A DNA stretch of 30,164 bases, from the IMG/VR virus record IMGVR_UViG_3300046792_000077, positions 1 through 30,164 of that record. One strand, written 5' to 3'. The DNA is from a virus. The notes under the pieces are model-generated. The model was not told the DNA's origin. It was given only the letters and a program-made list of their open reading frames with translations, and ran no database searches. The position numbers and the translations under genes are program-made. Below are positions 12,307-29,110 of the stretch, piece by piece (the first letter of the stretch is position 1; each line of letters begins with the position of its first letter).

Positions 12307-13422
12307 TTACAGTGGGAAAATCACAGCCATTGCGTTATCAGATACCTGTGTTTTACCCCAGATCACATCGTGCACTGTACCGTAGAGGTTTTGGCCGAAT
12401 TGCGCACCGGTGTACATGCGTAAGCTGCAACCTGTTTCCATATCGGTTTCAACAGCACTCATGAACGGATCGGTATCGGGTAAAGGTGGGATCGCAGCGT
12501 AGAATTGGTTACCGCTTTGGATCATACCCACTCTGTGAGAAGGTAAAACCTTAACTTGCATACCAGCAACAATTTGTTGAGTTATGTTTTGGTTTTTTCC
12601 CGTGGTAGCTTGCAATACTGGATCGATAGATACAGTTACTTGTGAACCGCCGGTACTTGCTGCGTCTGCGGTTGCTTTGAATTGCACTGGGCAAGCAGAT
12701 GGTTTGTGACCGACGAAAGTACGGAATCTAATGTTCGGTTGACCCGATACGTTATCCTGGAATTGGAAACGATCGTAGAGTTTAACCGAGTTCGCATCGT
12801 TAGCTGCATTAGTTCCACTGAATGTGATAGCAATGACGCCACCATCGGAATTTAATGTCGTGCTGACGACAGTAAGTGTACTACCTTGCTGACCTTCAGT
12901 ACCGGAAGTATGTTCTGGTAAAAGGTTAGAGGTGTACCATTCGCACTTACTAAATGCGCCGAGTTCCCATGAGTTACGTAACTCTTCATTACCTTGCGGT
13001 ACGAATTGATTTAACCCGCTACCAACAATGTCAGGAATCACAATATCGGATAAATAACCCTTAGTCATGTCCTTAGCCGCCCCGAAATTCCTGAAGAAGG
13101 CCAGTGCACTTGCTAATTGATTGAACGAATTAATTGGACTGACTCCATTACCATAGAAACGGTATGGTGAAGATTCGCAAATTCCAGCGATATCAGATTC
13201 AACGACAGCACCCAATTCTTCAATGGATGCGCGACCGAATCGTTCCATATATTCTTCTAAATTGAATATTAACTGTTGCGCAGATACATCGATACCGACG
13301 TTCTTTGCTTTATCAACAGTAAGCGTTTGAACTCTTTGTTCGACGCCTTGAAAGTTTACGACTAAACCATCGGCAGCAATAAAGCGTGGTGGCTTGTCGA
13401 ATGTAATTGTGTCGCCTAAGTT
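12307..13422 (-). CDS. Major coat protein, 3' exon (P22 coat-like)
   Basis: The 3' exon encodes 371 residues starting NLGDTITFDKPPRF and ending NAMAVIFPL. The fold family is the P22-type HK97 coat: a typical N-terminal stretch follows (VQTLTVDKAKNVGIDVSAQQ; FNLEEYMERFGRASIEELG), then an insertion-domain-like beta region about 170-290. Joined in frame to the 45 residues of 13668..13802 it gives a 416-residue protein, near P22 coat (430). The ATG at 13425 that would open a 372-residue frame has no ribosome site; its G is the predicted last intron base. I therefore treat it as intronic, not as the start. The junction reads SNPA-NLGDTITFD, an unbroken coat-like sequence. Confidence 0.87.
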   Translation of the reverse strand, partial: NLGDTITFDKPPRFIAADGLVVNFQGVEQRVQTLTVDKAKNVGIDVSAQQLIFNLEEYMERFGRASIEELGAVVESDIAGICESSPYRFYGNGVSPINSFNQLASALAFFRNFGAAKDMTKGYLSDIVIPDIVGSGLNQFVPQGNEELRNSWELGAFSKCEWYTSNLLPEHTSGTEGQQGSTLTVVSTTLNSDGGVIAITFSGTNAANDANSVKLYDRFQFQDNVSGQPNIRFRTFVGHKPSACPVQFKATADAASTGGSQVTVSIDPVLQATTGKNQNITQQIVAGMQVKVLPSHRVGMIQSGNQFYAAIPPLPDTDPFMSAVETDMETGCSLRMYTGAQFGQNLYGTVHDVIWGKTQVSDNAMAVIFPL

Positions 13423-13667
13423 CATGTATGTTCAATTAGGTTCGTTATTCCTAACCCTGCTTTCGCAGCTAGTAGTCACCTACTAGATCAGACTATATCT
13501 TCACCCTTTCGGGGCTGGGCGCTTCCACTCACTTGAGTGTACGAGCTTTCGCTCTAGTCGTTGCACCTTGCTCTTTCGAGCCTTGGCTCATGATTATCTC
13601 TTTCGAGACTTTCCATGAGTTCACCCAGTTACAACCGTCAATTTCTCAACGGCGAGCCTAACAATTA
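13423..13667 (-). ncRNA. Group I self-splicing intron in the coat gene
   Basis: A 245-nt insertion between coat residues 45 and 46. Intron numbering (1 = 13667). P1: exon AGCU pairs with intron GGCU (10-13), giving the U.G wobble at the 5' splice site. P2: 16-22 with 27-33, GAAA loop. P3: CUGGGUG 40-46 with CGCCCAG 147-153. P4: CUCAUG 49-54 with CAUGAG 76-81. P5: 59-63/68-72, GAAA. P6a: 87-90/95-98, GAAA. P7: GACUA 109-113 with UAGUC 173-177, inside the conserved contexts GUGCAACGACUAGA and AAGAUAUAGUC. P7.1 (114-125) and P7.2 (130-141), as in subgroup IA. P8: 155-157/162-164, GAAA. P9: 182-188/193-199, GUGA loop. P9.1: 200-211. P9.2: 214-218/228-232. It ends in G before AAC, which can pair with GUU (6-8) as P10. 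It holds no endonuclease frame. Confidence 0.95.
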
Positions 13668-13802
13668 AGCTGGATTCGATTTTTGAAAATCGCGATACTT
13701 CTTGTTCGCGGTATGAATAAAACAGTTGTTGTTTTGTAAGAACGCCAAGTCCGCTTTGTTGTAGGTTTGGACGTTCTGCAAAATGTTATTTGGCAATGGC
13801 AT
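13668..13802 (-). CDS. Major coat protein, 5' exon (N-terminal 45 residues)
   Basis: Starts at an ATG at 13802 with a clear ribosome site, GGAGAG at 13809..13814, six bases upstream. It reads MPLPNNILQNVQTYNKADLA, continues through CFIHTANKKYRDFQ and ends SNPA. The next codon in the unspliced RNA is TAA (13667..13665), so unspliced message gives only a 45-residue peptide. Composition and position match the N-arm of P22-type coat proteins, which is needed for capsid assembly. The gene follows the scaffold stop by about 58 nt. Too short for usual gene callers, this exon is likely to be missed in automatic annotation. Confidence 0.9.
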
Positions 13803-13860
13803 GTCATTCTCTCCATGTAATTAAACATAGAGCAAGATGTTATGGCATTAGTGAATAGCA

Positions 13861-14574
13861 CTAACCTCTGAAACGACGCTTCATATCCTGAAGTGTCAAT
13901 TTGCCACTATCTTGCCCTGCGGTAGAAGATGACAAACGATTTAGGGGTGGCTGAACTTCACGTTCGGCGGCTTTAGCCTGTTCATTGGCTTTTATCGATG
14001 CGCTTATACGATTCAACATCGTTTTAGCGGCATTCGGATCACGTTCGGATAACACAGCGACAGTAGCCCATTTTGACGGATTTTTAATAATCTCGTACAT
14101 GACTTCACGCGTATTATCTAAAGTGTTCGCCAAATAAACGAGGTTCGGAAAGGCTTGAGGATTAAAATCTGCCATGACATCTTCAAAATCTTCATAGACT
14201 TCCTTACCGGAAGCCATTTTAGATTTATATTCGTCGGCAATCCTTGTTGCCTCACGTTGCAATTCTTCTTGCGCTTTAGCTTCATTCGCTTGTTGAAACC
14301 TCTCTGTGAGACTGGCCATCACCTTCTCGGCAATCGCGTTCTCATCCACAGGTAGAGCCATTCCGCCCATTGATCCTGCTTGTTGTTTCAAGTTTTCGTT
14401 TTCAGCTTTGAGTGCGTCAAGTTCCTGTTGCACGTGATCTCTCCCTTTGAGCTTAGCTTTTTTGATAAGTTCTTCAACGCGAGAGACAGGTATCATCTTC
14501 TCAGCTTGGGCTTCTTCTTGAAGTCCAGCGCTTTCAGGAGATGGCATTTCCGTATCTAAAACTTCCTCAGTCAT
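13861..14574 (-). CDS. Capsid scaffolding protein
   Basis: A 237-residue, highly charged, helical protein just upstream of coat, where P22 has scaffold gp8 (303 residues). It has an acidic N-terminus (MTEEVLDTEMPSPE), coiled-coil segments (DHVQQELDALKAENENLKQQ; about residues 45-65) and an Ala/Glu/Gln-rich middle. The basic C-terminus (LQDMKRRFRG) resembles the coat-binding helix-turn-helix end of P22 scaffold, which is also rich in Lys and Arg. It directs procapsid assembly and leaves before DNA fills the shell. The first gene of any length downstream of the promoter at 14706..14734. Confidence 0.85.
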   Translation of the reverse strand: MTEEVLDTEMPSPESAGLQEEAQAEKMIPVSRVEELIKKAKLKGRDHVQQELDALKAENENLKQQAGSMGGMALPVDENAIAEKVMASLTERFQQANEAKAQEELQREATRIADEYKSKMASGKEVYEDFEDVMADFNPQAFPNLVYLANTLDNTREVMYEIIKNPSKWATVAVLSERDPNAAKTMLNRISASIKANEQAKAAEREVQPPLNRLSSSTAGQDSGKLTLQDMKRRFRG

Positions 14575-14950: not shown

Positions 14951-15565
14951 TTATTTAGTTGATAAAAATTCTTCAAATCCTTCATTTCTTTCATAATCAC
15001 GATAGTTAATACTGGTTTTTTCTTCCATAATATATGTTTTAATGGCATGACAATTAGCACAATAGACTTGTAACTTTTGTTTGGCCTCTTCAAGATTATT
15101 TACATAATATCTGCAAATTCTGCTTCCTAATCTTTTTCTATCTTCTTTTCCATCACCTTTAATATGATCTAATTGAAGTGCCCTAATATCTATATCATAT
15201 CCACATCTGATGCATTTTCCACCAAGATATTGAATAACAACTATTCTTTTCATAGAATCTCTATGTAAATAATATAAATTTTTTTCTGGATTAAATTTTC
15301 TATAAATCTGTAATCGATTCAATCCTTCAATTTTAGGATATTTTCTTTTTGCTTCATGTATTTTTGTTAAGTGTTCCATTCTATTTTTTGCTGAACATGA
15401 ACCAGTACAATATTTCTGTGTTTTTCTAGCTTTAAATTGTTTTTTACAAAAATTACATAACTTAGAATGAATTTTTAATATCATGCTAGATTGGCATTTT
15501 CTTGAACAATACTTTTTGTTTTTATGACAATTAATTAAATCATTGTTACATGTTTTACATTTCAT
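14951..15565 (-). CDS. Free-standing HNH endonuclease (putative homing endonuclease)
   Basis: A 204-residue protein. The N-terminus has two zinc-binding units: CKTCNN with YCSRKC (about 3-24) and CNFCKKQF with YCTGSC (about 37-56). Residues about 120-175 carry the HNH domain: CIRCG, then LQLDHI (the first His), then CANCHAIKT (Asn and final His). This matches HNH homing endonucleases of phages. It sits between portal and scaffold genes, a site with no such gene in P22, and its very AT-rich codons differ from the surrounding virion genes, which supports recent insertion. Its own promoter and start-codon hairpin lie just upstream. It may cut intron-less coat genes, but its target is unknown. 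Confidence 0.88.
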   Translation of the reverse strand: MKCKTCNNDLINCHKNKKYCSRKCQSSMILKIHSKLCNFCKKQFKARKTQKYCTGSCSAKNRMEHLTKIHEAKRKYPKIEGLNRLQIYRKFNPEKNLYYLHRDSMKRIVVIQYLGGKCIRCGYDIDIRALQLDHIKGDGKEDRKRLGSRICRYYVNNLEEAKQKLQVYCANCHAIKTYIMEEKTSINYRDYERNEGFEEFLSTK

Positions 15566-15617: not shown

Positions 15618-15800
15618 GCGTTTCAGCGTATTTGCTAAAACAGCGCGCTTCTTAAGCGTTGGGTTCTTACTATGCGCCGCTTTTGCTAACTTCTTAGCCG
15701 GTATCTTCTTACCTTCTGGCACATGTAGCTCTTCACGCAAAGCGCCTTTCTTCATATGCATTGCCTGAATAAACTTTTTAGGTTTCTCTTTCTTCTTCAT
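15603..15800 (-). CDS. Small basic phage protein (65 residues)
   Basis: A lysine-rich protein: MKKKEKPKKFIQAMHMKKGA, then PEGKKIPAKKLAKAAHSKNP, ending NTLKRLRSK. The core (KKGALxxxLxVPxGKKIPxxKLxKAAHSKNPTLxKRA) recurs in small proteins of many tailed phages near portal or capsid genes. Role unknown; DNA or RNA binding is possible from charge. It overlaps the last 23 bases of portal in another frame, so translation is probably coupled. Confidence 0.75.
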   Translation of the reverse strand: MKKKEKPKKFIQAMHMKKGALREELHVPEGKKIPAKKLAKAAHSKNPTLKKRAVLANTLKRLRSK

Positions 15801-17904
15801 GATGGCTCATTCCTTCCGATAGTTTGTGGGATAATTCAGTAACCATTTTCGCCGCATCAAGTGCTGTTTCGTTATCGACTCTTTCCTGTTCCAGTGCGCG
15901 ATCTAAGTCAGCATTTTGTATCTTGCTCATAATCTCTAGGAACTTGACATCGGTTTCTTTGTTTCGAGTCGCCGTTTCGGCTGATATCTTCGCCATGTTT
16001 ACTTCAGCGCGTAGTTGCGAATCTTCACGTTCGACTTGTACCTGGTCGGCAGCAACTTTAATTTGATCTTGTGCAATCGATTCAGGTGTCGGTTGATTTT
16101 GTTTAGCTTGAGCTTCTTCAGCCGCTTGTTTCTTTTGTTGCTCCATCCATTCTTGACACATTGATTTCAGTTTATCAATACCACGAATATCAATGTTATC
16201 TAAGAGAACCTCTAAACCGTTTTGTTCCATAAATGCTTTGAAGCTTTCACTGACAGCCATAAGGTTTTCGATGGTCTTAAGTGCAATTTGTTTTTGAACC
16301 GCAAAGTTAACACCTGGCTCTATCTCAACTTCAAGTGCTGAGATGTCATAATCAAATTTGAGATTATCACCTTTGTTAATTTCATAGTAATCACGCTTAC
16401 CGTCTGGATGAACAATCGGAATACTACGAGGTGTCACATAATACTTTGGCAATAGATCAAGATAGATTTCTGCAAGTCTAGACCATCCCATGATAAAGCC
16501 CATCGTGTATGGCATTGCGGCTGCATTGGAATGCATAGCGCCTTGCATGATAGCAATACCAGACAAATCGGAATCGTTGATATTCCCTTGTGCTGCATCA
16601 TAGGAACCTAAAATCACTTGAACAGTTTGATCGGCTAGAGTGAAAGTATTTGTAATCTCTGGCGGTATCGGTGTTCGGTTAATAACTTGAGGTGGGTTCA
16701 ATGGAATATCAGGGTTGCCATCTTTGAATTGATTGTAGAGCACCACACTTGCCTTTTGAGGAGTGGTATAAGCAAGCTGATAATCTTTATTATCCGGTAT
16801 GCCTTCAACCGGTGCTGTCCATTTGTGCTGGACTAAGTTTTCTATTTCATTACAAAGTGATTGACCCGCAAAGTTTTTCATCTTCTGCGTATCTTTGGCT
16901 TGATACACATAAGGACGAACAATTTGTTCTGCCTGGGAATTATTAGTATCTCTCAATATGACCGAGTTACCATCAAAGAACACCAAAGGCAACATAGAAA
17001 AGTTTGTTTCTTTATGCTCGACAATCTTTGTGCCGGTCAGAATGTATTTATCAATCGTTACGATATTTGTCATACGTGATTTCAATACAATCGGTGCCTG
17101 CTCCATGATGCCTGCATCGTTCCACTTCTGAAGGAATTCTTCATAGCGCTTTTCACTGATGACATGCCCATTCGCAAGCTTCAATATCTTTGTTTTCTTC
17201 ATCTTCTTTTTGAAGTGTTCGGCAAACAAAATGATATCTTCTTTCTGATTTTTGTAAGACCAGTTAAATTCTTCAAGGTCGCTGCTGCGTGAGAAGCTAA
17301 CCCCTTTTAAAATATCAGAGCCATAGAGTTCGACTGCTTCATCGGCGCTCTTTGGGAATAGTTCAGTACAGAAACGTCCATCACCTTTATGACTTTTGCG
17401 TGCTAACGGATCGAACACGGTTAAAGTTGGATCAAAGACACGCTCAACAAAAATACGCTGGTCAAATGACATTTCACTCGCGTAATCGGTAAAGACTTTG
17501 CCGACTGAATAACCGCCGCTTAGGATGTCACGATATAAATGATAGCTCAAAGCATCCTTATCACCACCGACAAAACATGCCTTAAGATGCGCTTCGACTA
17601 ATGCAATGATATCAGGGTCAATGAGATGGACGCCCTCTTTCGCACGCACCGTGAATGCCGGATCCATTTTGCTAAACTCACCGCATAAACGGCTAATGAA
17701 GCTTTCAAGGATATTAAACTCTAAATTGTTCTTGTCGATTTCCTGGTTGACTGATTTGTCAGCCGGTAGCATCGATGATTTGAACACGAAACGAATGAAA
17801 TCATTGTACATGATGTAGTTATTCTTAAAATACATACATCCTTTTTCAATTTCATCTTTGCACTTATCGAATTCATTTAATGCTGATTGTTTAATTATTG
17901 CCAT
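15778..17904 (-). CDS. Portal protein, P22-like
   Basis: A 708-residue protein, close to P22 portal gp1 (725). It begins with helical segments (MAIIKQSALNEFDKCKDEIE), and has the portal core with ERVFDPTLTVFDPLARKSHK and later NQFKDGNPDIPLNPPQVINR, then the motif GSYDAAQGNINDSDLSGIAI, typical of P22-type portals. The last 120 residues are a Gln/Glu/Ala-rich helix (about 590-708), corresponding to the long C-terminal barrel of the P22 portal. Twelve copies form the vertex through which DNA enters and leaves. It overlaps the terminase gene end by 14 nt. Confidence 0.92.
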   Translation of the reverse strand: MAIIKQSALNEFDKCKDEIEKGCMYFKNNYIMYNDFIRFVFKSSMLPADKSVNQEIDKNNLEFNILESFISRLCGEFSKMDPAFTVRAKEGVHLIDPDIIALVEAHLKACFVGGDKDALSYHLYRDILSGGYSVGKVFTDYASEMSFDQRIFVERVFDPTLTVFDPLARKSHKGDGRFCTELFPKSADEAVELYGSDILKGVSFSRSSDLEEFNWSYKNQKEDIILFAEHFKKKMKKTKILKLANGHVISEKRYEEFLQKWNDAGIMEQAPIVLKSRMTNIVTIDKYILTGTKIVEHKETNFSMLPLVFFDGNSVILRDTNNSQAEQIVRPYVYQAKDTQKMKNFAGQSLCNEIENLVQHKWTAPVEGIPDNKDYQLAYTTPQKASVVLYNQFKDGNPDIPLNPPQVINRTPIPPEITNTFTLADQTVQVILGSYDAAQGNINDSDLSGIAIMQGAMHSNAAAMPYTMGFIMGWSRLAEIYLDLLPKYYVTPRSIPIVHPDGKRDYYEINKGDNLKFDYDISALEVEIEPGVNFAVQKQIALKTIENLMAVSESFKAFMEQNGLEVLLDNIDIRGIDKLKSMCQEWMEQQKKQAAEEAQAKQNQPTPESIAQDQIKVAADQVQVEREDSQLRAEVNMAKISAETATRNKETDVKFLEIMSKIQNADLDRALEQERVDNETALDAAKMVTELSHKLSEGMSHHEEERET

Positions 17905-20149: not shown

Positions 20150-20575
20150 TTAAAACCATTTTTCTTTAAATTGTTTTGACCAATCTGTATTTCTAGCGTT
20201 AGGGTGTGGATTTTCATCAAAATAAAAAGTAGCGCTACGCCTATCTTTTACCAAATCTATTGGAAATACATAACATGCATTATGAATTGGACAAGCACCA
20301 ACAATATAATCACAATCTTTATGACTATATTTTTCAATTCTATGTGTCATTCCTCTAGGTTTAAGAAAGTCCATCATCCAACGTTGTCCATTATCAGTTT
20401 TACCATAATAGATAGTTTTAACCTGAATTCTTACTAACTTATTACCGGTATCAGCAATAAGATCATAAGAAGCTTTAGCAAAAAATGGAAACGATACAAC
20501 ATAACCTAATTCCACTAATCTCTGCGCAGTTAACAATTCTGCTGGCGCTCCAGAATTTATGTGTCGTCTAATCAT
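20150..20575 (-). CDS. PD-(D/E)XK endonuclease, I-Ssp6803I-like homing endonuclease candidate
   Basis: The open frame reaches a TTG at 20602 (150 residues), but the ATG at 20575 is the likelier start (141 residues, MIRRHINSGAPAELLTAQRL). Counting from the TTG, the catalytic set is E22, D47 and Q60-V-K62 in RIQVKT. I-Ssp6803I, a group I intron endonuclease of 150 residues, uses E11, D36, Q49 and K51, as I recall: the same spacing of 25, 13 and 2 with a Gln in place of the usual acid. A YDLIAD strand and YVVSFPFFAKASYDL precede it. The family (PDDEXK_5) also occurs as free-standing genes. The proposed role is cutting an intron-less target, perhaps coat, or another site in related phages. Confidence 0.78.
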   Translation of the reverse strand: MIRRHINSGAPAELLTAQRLVELGYVVSFPFFAKASYDLIADTGNKLVRIQVKTIYYGKTDNGQRWMMDFLKPRGMTHRIEKYSHKDCDYIVGACPIHNACYVFPIDLVKDRRSATFYFDENPHPNARNTDWSKQFKEKWF

Positions 20576-20582
20576 GCGGTGT

Positions 20583-20610
20583 AGTATACAGTCATGCCGC
20601 AATTAAGCAA
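20583..20610 (-). promoter_or_regulatory. Possible promoter for the PD-(D/E)XK gene
   Basis: Minus strand -10 TATACT at 20588..20583 with a weak -35-like TTGCTT 16 bases upstream. The -10 lies only 8 nt from the ATG, so the start would be near or inside the first codons and the message almost leaderless. This is a weak call. Confidence 0.25.
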
Positions 20611-20915: not shown

Positions 20916-21248
20916 TTATAAATCAATATTCGTGCCTTGTCTTATGGAATTAAATAGATTGATAGCCTCTTCTTGGCTTCTTATGATACAAACATATCCT
21001 TTCCAGTTATCAAAGAACTTAGACTCAAATTGGGTAAGCTTTTGCTGACTGGGCATTTTATTACCGTCTTTTATTTCAATGAGTATGTTATGTCGCTCTC
21101 CTACTGCATCTTGCATACCGATTAAAATATCAGGACAACCTTTGCCCACTTCTGATAAAATAAGCACACTTGCTCCTAATTTTCTAAATGTTTTAACTAT
21201 ATTTTGTTGATTTTCATCTACTCTGTGCGAATAAGCACCTCTGCTCAT
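20916..21248 (-). CDS. VRR-NUC-type nuclease
   Basis: A 110-residue protein. The catalytic set of VRR-NUC/PD-(D/E)XK enzymes is seen: GKGCPDILIG (Asp), then ILIEIKDGNKMPSQQ (Glu-x-Lys), followed by LTQFESKFFDNWKGYVCIIRS, the usual C-terminal helix and strand. Phage VRR-NUC proteins cleave branched or Holliday DNA or act in replication and repair. It is downstream of the replication gene on the same strand, in keeping with that role. Confidence 0.85.
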   Translation of the reverse strand: MSRGAYSHRVDENQQNIVKTFRKLGASVLILSEVGKGCPDILIGMQDAVGERHNILIEIKDGNKMPSQQKLTQFESKFFDNWKGYVCIIRSQEEAINLFNSIRQGTNIDL

Positions 21249-28327: not shown

Positions 28328-29110
28328 ATGATGAAAAAGAACTGCAAAATACATGGCGAGTTAGAAGAGAAATTTATTGCCAAAAACACAAAAGGCATTT
28401 TACTTTGCAAGATATGCCGCAATGAATATGCTGATAAGTGGCGTAATGAGCATAAAGAACAAACTAGATTAAAAAGTTTAGAATTAAAGAAACTGGCCAA
28501 GGAAAATAAAATCTCTTTAGCCTGCGAAAAACATGGTGAAGTAACCGGTAATGATTTATATATCAATATTAGATGCTGCAAATCTTGTGCAATATGCACT
28601 AGAGAAAGGCTTAATAAAAGACATAAAGAAAAGAAGGCAAAAGAACCTTTGACCGAATATCAAATACTCAGAATAGAAAAACAAAAAGGTCATTGTAAAA
28701 TTCACGGTGAAAATGCTCGTACAAAAACAGGTCAGCAAGCTTGTAAATATTGTAGGCAAGAATCATCGGAAAGATGGCGTCAAAAACATCCTGAAAAAGT
28801 CGCAATTATAAATGAAAAACGTAGGTTAATAGCAAACGGATATCGTTATAAAGAACATCAAAGAAAAACACGTGAATTCAGGAAAGAAAAAGATCCAGAA
28901 GCCTATAATAAAATGATGGCTGATAAGGCCAGAAAATATCGTGAAACTTTACCTGATGCCTATATTAAACAACAAATTAAAAATCAAAGAATGTTTCGTC
29001 AGGAAGGAATTAAGATACCGGTTGAATCTATCCCAAAAGAATTAATAGACATAAAAAGACTTCACATCAAACTGAAAAAAACCCTAAAGGAAAGAAAGAA
29101 TGACAATTAA
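28328..29110 (+). CDS. Triple zinc-knuckle protein, possible nucleic-acid binder
   Basis: A 260-residue basic protein. Three units of the form C-x2-HG...C-x2-C: CKIHGELEEKF with CKICRNEY; CEKHGEVTG with CKSCAICT; CKIHGENARTK with CKYCRQES. The rest is very basic and helical (RRLIANGYRYKEHQRKTREF; MMADKARKYRETLPDAYI). Similar zinc units occur in phage HNH-like and intron-endonuclease-like proteins, but no HNH catalytic set is visible here. It may be a decayed or unusual DNA-binding protein. Its ribosome site is weak (ATGATG after an A/T run). Confidence 0.65.
   Translation: MMKKNCKIHGELEEKFIAKNTKGILLCKICRNEYADKWRNEHKEQTRLKSLELKKLAKENKISLACEKHGEVTGNDLYINIRCCKSCAICTRERLNKRHKEKKAKEPLTEYQILRIEKQKGHCKIHGENARTKTGQQACKYCRQESSERWRQKHPEKVAIINEKRRLIANGYRYKEHQRKTREFRKEKDPEAYNKMMADKARKYRETLPDAYIKQQIKNQRMFRQEGIKIPVESIPKELIDIKRLHIKLKKTLKERKNDN

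Follow-up and report, generated by a model that had tools for sequence, protein, structure and literature searches.

A putative self-splicing, ORF-less group I intron, apparently acquired sideways, in the coat gene of a P22-like phage

The coat gene of an uncultured P22-like phage is interrupted by a 245-nt, IA-like group I intron without an open reading frame, which is very probably a functional, self-splicing element that was acquired sideways; I put the probability of this reading at roughly 93%. The window, by which I mean the whole stretch of DNA that was analysed (30,164 bases), is an incomplete IMG/VR virus record, IMGVR_UViG_3300046792_000077. The reading draws on the structure of the intron, the exon junction, a P1 helix that is co-adapted with its exon, the selection on the first exon and a conflict between intron and coat trees, all of them read from the sequence. 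The features concerned are collected in Table 1.

Table 1. Features of the window in and around the interrupted coat gene
Feature	Position	Strand	Support or remark
Coat exon 2, 371 codons and stop, starts NLGDTITFD	12307..13422	minus	phrog_283, 1.2e-20
Group I intron, 245 nt, without endonuclease ORF, subgroup IA-like	13423..13667	minus	RF00028 and ten-sequence covariation
AUG in the frame of exon 2, last base omega-G	13423..13425	minus	yields a mechanical 372-aa 'coat' ORF
P9 (GUGA loop), P9.1 (GAAA loop), P9.2	13436..13486	minus	pairing in ten-intron alignment
P7 catalytic helix, GACUA (13555-13559) / UAGUC (13491-13495)	13491..13559	minus	invariant in ten introns
P3, 13622-13628 / 13515-13521	13515..13628	minus	100% of cells paired, 3 compensated pairs
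P1, exon AGCU and intron U1 (13667-13671) / guide AGGCU (13655-13659)	13655..13671	minus	50/50 cells paired
In-frame UAA, intron bases 1-3	13665..13667	minus	unspliced reading stops after 45 aa
Coat exon 1, ATG at 13802, 45 codons, ends ...SNPA	13668..13802	minus	N-terminus kept in 17 relatives
Scaffold-like gene, upstream of coat	13861..14574	minus	portal-coat position; kept in relatives
HNH endonuclease gene, free-standing, 204 aa, portal-scaffold interval	14951..15565	minus	phrog_1271 HNH, 5.7e-14
P22-like portal gene	15778..17904	minus	PF16510, 6.4e-73
Terminase		minus	phrog_38 match

The minus strand carries the genes for the terminase small and large subunits, the portal, an HNH protein, a scaffold-like protein and the coat protein, with the terminase small subunit and the scaffold named by their position. 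The gene order terminase-portal-scaffold-coat and the matches to phrog_283, PF16510 and phrog_38 identify the coat gene as P22-like. Searches with Pfam- and PHROG-type profiles gave no family match for the scaffold-like gene. A search for the host via genome contigs placed eight relatives in unrelated metagenome bins, without a common host.

The interruption had been proposed to be a group I intron of 245 nt in a sequence-only reading, and an Rfam covariance search bears this out: Intron_gpI (RF00028) matches positions 13677-13469 of the minus strand over the full model (1-253) with 82.2 bits and an E value of 1.1e-19, where the gathering score is 50, and it is the sole Rfam family matched in the whole record. 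The boundaries that had been given, 13423 and 13667, are exact, as the 5' splice site lies between U13668 and U13667, where P1 has its U.G pair, and the omega-G is 13423; an omega-G ends all ten introns compared. Helices P1, P2, P3, P4, P5, P6, P6a, P7, P7.1, P7.2, P8, P9, P9.1 and P9.2 can be drawn, with P3 enclosing P4, P5, P6, P6a, the 5' strand of P7, P7.1 and P7.2, and with P7 forming a pseudoknot with P3. On reading the sequence again, GAAA can close six hairpins (P2, P5, P6a, P7.1, P8 and P9.1) and GUGA closes P9, in agreement with the loops described earlier. The 245 nt hold no endonuclease ORF, and thus no internal homing endonuclease. Introns of subgroup IA carry P7.1 and P7.2 between P7 and P3. 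Both hairpins are present there, with compensatory changes in each, and the intron fits subgroup IA, near which it had been placed before, by this general rule rather than by a subgroup model. An assembly artefact is ruled out, since related introns recur in many independent samples; the allele in the window is known from one contig only.

The structure was examined in an alignment of the window intron with nine distinct relatives, with 500 shuffles as control. In the named structure 94.4% of 648 cells are paired, and sliding the partners by one column lowers the pairing to 37-45%. Double compensatory changes are found in 31 of 65 base pairs, against 14.0 in the shuffles. The score for covariation reaches 0.372, against 0.129, and none of the 500 shuffles is as high. 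P3, P4, P6, P7 and P8, the core of RF00028, are paired in nearly all ten introns, P9 is 100% paired with five compensated pairs and P9.2 is 96% paired; all core helices that had been named from the single sequence (P1, P3, P4, P7, P8 and P9) are present and pair across the ten introns. In P1, the helix between exon and intron, three of the five pairs are compensated and the splice-site U.G is found in 10/10 introns. The exon targets of P1 vary by site (AGCU, GGCU, AGGU and GCUU), and the pairing is nonetheless full. As the pairing is kept despite these site-to-site differences, guide and target have changed together, which I consider the strongest sequence evidence that these introns would splice.

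That the intron splits the major coat gene, as first proposed, is confirmed by the coat profile. The match of exon 2 alone to phrog_283, the profile of a major head protein, begins at column 42; about 41 residues at the start are thus lacking from it, and exon 1 supplies 45. Joining the exons restores SNPA-NLGDTITFD in frame and yields a coat protein of 416 aa; comparison with intronless coat genes gives exactly the junction that had been predicted. All 17 close relatives with a full 5' end are intronless and continuous across the junction, and the nearest intronless relatives are 79-89% identical to exon 2. A wider set contains 92 uninterrupted loci, with some redundancy, and every one with an intact 5' end is continuous at the junction; two phages (four loci) alone are split, nine bases downstream of the window site. 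A Shine-Dalgarno-like box, GGAGAG, lies at 13809-13814 before the ATG of exon 1. Compared with 14 relatives, exon 1 has a pN of about 0.09 and a pS of about 0.9, which indicates strong purifying selection and argues that it is still translated as part of the coat protein.

I infer that splicing takes place in vivo. The guide AGGCU would pair with the end of exon 1 (AGCU, followed by U) as P1, a guanosine would attack after U13668, the freed exon 1 would attack after omega-G 13423, and the exons would be ligated in frame into the message for the 416-aa protein, while the UAA at the start of the intron would halt ribosomes at the boundary of exon 1. Because the intron opens with this in-frame UAA, a full-length coat protein needs splicing. 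In this sense alone, and not as a regulation of capsid output, the earlier statement that the intron couples capsid production to splicing can be kept.

Alternatively, the intron could be dead and the coat protein made from an internal AUG, as the 372-aa ORF (MNLGD...) that lacks the first 45 residues. An in-frame AUG does lie exactly at the 3' end of the intron. However, no Shine-Dalgarno-like or other ribosome-binding site precedes this AUG, and in the introns of site D, one of four insertion sites in this gene family, the equivalent codon at the end of the intron does not lie in frame. Moreover, exon 1 is strongly purified by selection, the uninterrupted relatives with a full 5' end all keep the 45 residues and P1 covaries with the exon, and I regard a dead intron as highly improbable. 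The same AUG can cause gene callers to miss the intron, as the terminal ATG in frame gives a plausible, N-terminally truncated coat ORF, with exon 1 lost.

The relatives of the intron come from a scan of viral contigs with the core pattern GGTGCAACGACTA N25-55 GAAGATATAGTC, which gave 92 stretches. Nine distinct introns match the window intron over about its whole length with 76-86% identity, and all nine sit in P22-like coat genes. The ten introns occupy four sites, in two phases, given here in columns of the coat profile: after column 45 (the window and L074), after column 48 (L090, L066, L051, L050 and L062, the last with a very distant coat), after column 144 in phase 1 (L054 and L095) and after column 148 (L079). 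Removal of each of the ten leaves an open coat frame. Scans for the junction patterns found no coat introns at site A or site B beyond these. Three further candidates (L328-L330) were discarded, as they are without intron and look like chance matches.

The nearest kin of the window intron is the one in L074, 86% identical and at the same site, whereas the two coats share 48% amino acid identity over exon 2. The intron tree unites both introns with a support of 95/92. In the coat tree L074 groups with L054 and L039 (100/99), and a pairing of the window with L074 is rejected (AU p 6.8e-59). As the introns are united and the coats are not, the intron appears to have moved horizontally, at the same site, between deeply diverged phages. 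Sites A, B and D are each confined to one side of a branch in the intron tree; this tree stems from a short alignment, in which holding together the five introns of the window's coat clade is not rejected (AU p 0.139), while holding together those of L074, L054 and L095 gives an AU p of 0.053. The main grounds for the proposed transfer are the coat tree and the 86% identity at one site. In the preferred reading the intron would have entered the window phage sideways, its closest kin being the L074 intron, and relatives with altered guides sit elsewhere in the same coat gene family. The recurrence at four sites of one coat gene in very different phages points to repeated sideways spread. A possible co-conversion tract was set aside: AACTTAGG stands at the junction of 6/6 alleles with the intron and of 24/60 alleles without it (p 0.0065), but the comparison is post hoc and among kin sequences.

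Introns in capsid genes have been described before. The mycobacteriophage LittleE (Cluster J) carries an intron, most likely group I, in its major capsid gene, and its splicing was proven by RT-PCR and N-terminal sequencing, with precise in-frame removal (PMC3706429). It resembles the window in the split major capsid gene and in the precise in-frame removal, deduced here from sequence alone, but it is 819 bp long, holds an HNH gene and interrupts an HK97-type capsid gene, whereas the window intron is 245 nt, ORF-less and in a P22-like coat gene. The lactococcal phage Tuc2009, as cited in PMC3706429, likewise has a group I intron in a capsid gene, and belongs to another phage group. The closest intron in a cultured phage lies in a DNA polymerase gene, for example of Acinetobacter phage vB_Ab_1137_KEN_02 (72% identity over 83%); its core is similar, but its host gene differs and HNH genes lie around it. 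A literature search, which covered few subscription journals, found no description of introns in P22-like coat genes, or of introns that occupy several positions within a single coat family. Group I introns in capsid genes are thus known already, while their recurrence at several sites of one coat family looks undescribed in the literature searched, and what the present observations add is that one coat-gene family is occupied repeatedly, at several sites, by introns that move horizontally. As a virion contains hundreds of copies of the coat protein, an intron in its gene has to be spliced out efficiently when expression is at its height. With ten natural introns at four sites, guides that covary and numerous alleles free of the intron, the set offers a ready system to study the change of target sites and the spread in uncultured phages.

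As to how the intron moves, I infer that an endonuclease supplied in trans breaks the DNA. Both the intron and the HNH gene are present in the window and absent from the nearest intronless phages; in L012, an intronless phage, the two small genes on either side of the HNH slot lie next to each other, and 13 bases separate the matching segments, against about 670 in the window. In collaborative homing, which is compatible with the reading preferred here, the HNH protein would cleave coat genes that lack the intron, close to where it inserts, and the intron and the HNH gene would be copied in together during repair. T7-like phages, cyanophage psbA and the ICP1 terminase provide known cases of introns that lack an ORF and have a free-standing homing endonuclease close by (PMC10448857, PMC3984707), and such an enzyme beside an ORF-less intron is a known arrangement (PMC10448857). 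The window is similar in its small ORF-less intron and in the free-standing nuclease gene near the host gene; unlike these systems, it has a scaffold gene between nuclease and coat gene, and its HNH gene is a candidate partner only. However, this is a single case. Relatives of the HNH protein were found at none of the other coat-intron loci, in the stretches examined of partial genomes; elsewhere in viral contigs they reach only about 29-37% identity, and 50,697 phage records contain none. As a partner common to all coat introns the HNH protein was thus rejected. Its target could also be the portal-scaffold gap itself, and the slot may simply attract such genes, as the intronless L008 has an unrelated nuclease in it (1900-2385, Endo VII-like, named from sequence). 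I consider collaborative homing possible but doubtful.

A tentative alternative, which again concerns mobility alone, is that no dedicated endonuclease takes part and the introns spread through reverse splicing or general recombination. The guide pairing of only 4-5 bp, which differs between the sites as retargeting would need, is consistent with this, as is the lack of a nearby nuclease related to the window HNH at the other coat-intron loci. However, these genomes are partial and an enzyme could be encoded elsewhere, and in the phage systems known so far reverse splicing is regarded as a rare event. The portal-scaffold gap is possibly a hot spot for free-standing nucleases; in other relatives it contains only small ORFs, many of them lysine-rich.

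After removal of near-copies, the family defined by the core pattern comprises 40 distinct introns, with host genes assigned from PHROG matches of cluster representatives. About 25 of the 40 interrupt a gene for a major head protein (phrog_283 nine, phrog_371-like eight, phrog_1328 seven, phrog_9953 one); the others lie in genes for DNA polymerase, terminase, portal or RNA polymerase, or in genes that could not be assigned. A first control pattern gave only three stretches. A second, GAAGATATAGTCCA, gave 113 non-redundant sites, not all of them verified as introns; among its top 25 families this set is much more mixed, with psbA and nuclease ORFs in the lead, and some head proteins are also present, phrog_283 among them. 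The preference of the lineage for head genes is no more than suggestive, since the pattern was derived from an intron of a coat gene and part of the control sites are unverified. Among the assigned rows, 15 changes of host gene are required on the core tree, which shows that the lineage switches host genes. It is conceivable, though rather speculative, that a small ORF-less group I lineage has specialised on phage head genes, crossing between unrelated families and sites by changes of the guide, while nucleases in trans come and go.

Some minor observations concern these loci. Near position 4138 of L324 (minus strand), an intron-like core of another group I sublineage (GAAGATATAGTCCA) lies beside a distant phrog_283-like coat ORF, and the P22-like coat family may thus host more than one intron lineage. 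In L041, L057, L089 and L097 a cluster of related introns accompanies an upstream protein that matches no PHROG family, possibly another head protein absent from PHROGs; in L057 this is near a tail sheath gene. An apparent hybrid histidine kinase and a coiled-coil/ankyrin-like protein adjoin the terminase genes in L066 (8046-12019), an unusual cargo. The window itself further encodes a PD-(D/E)XK endonuclease (20150-20602, minus strand; PF11645, 2.5e-19), an ORF resembling endonucleases and Holliday junction resolvases (20916-21248) and a 260-aa protein (28328-29110, plus strand; without Pfam or PHROG match) with repeated Cys/His zinc-finger-like motifs, which may be the DNA-binding part of a degraded endonuclease.
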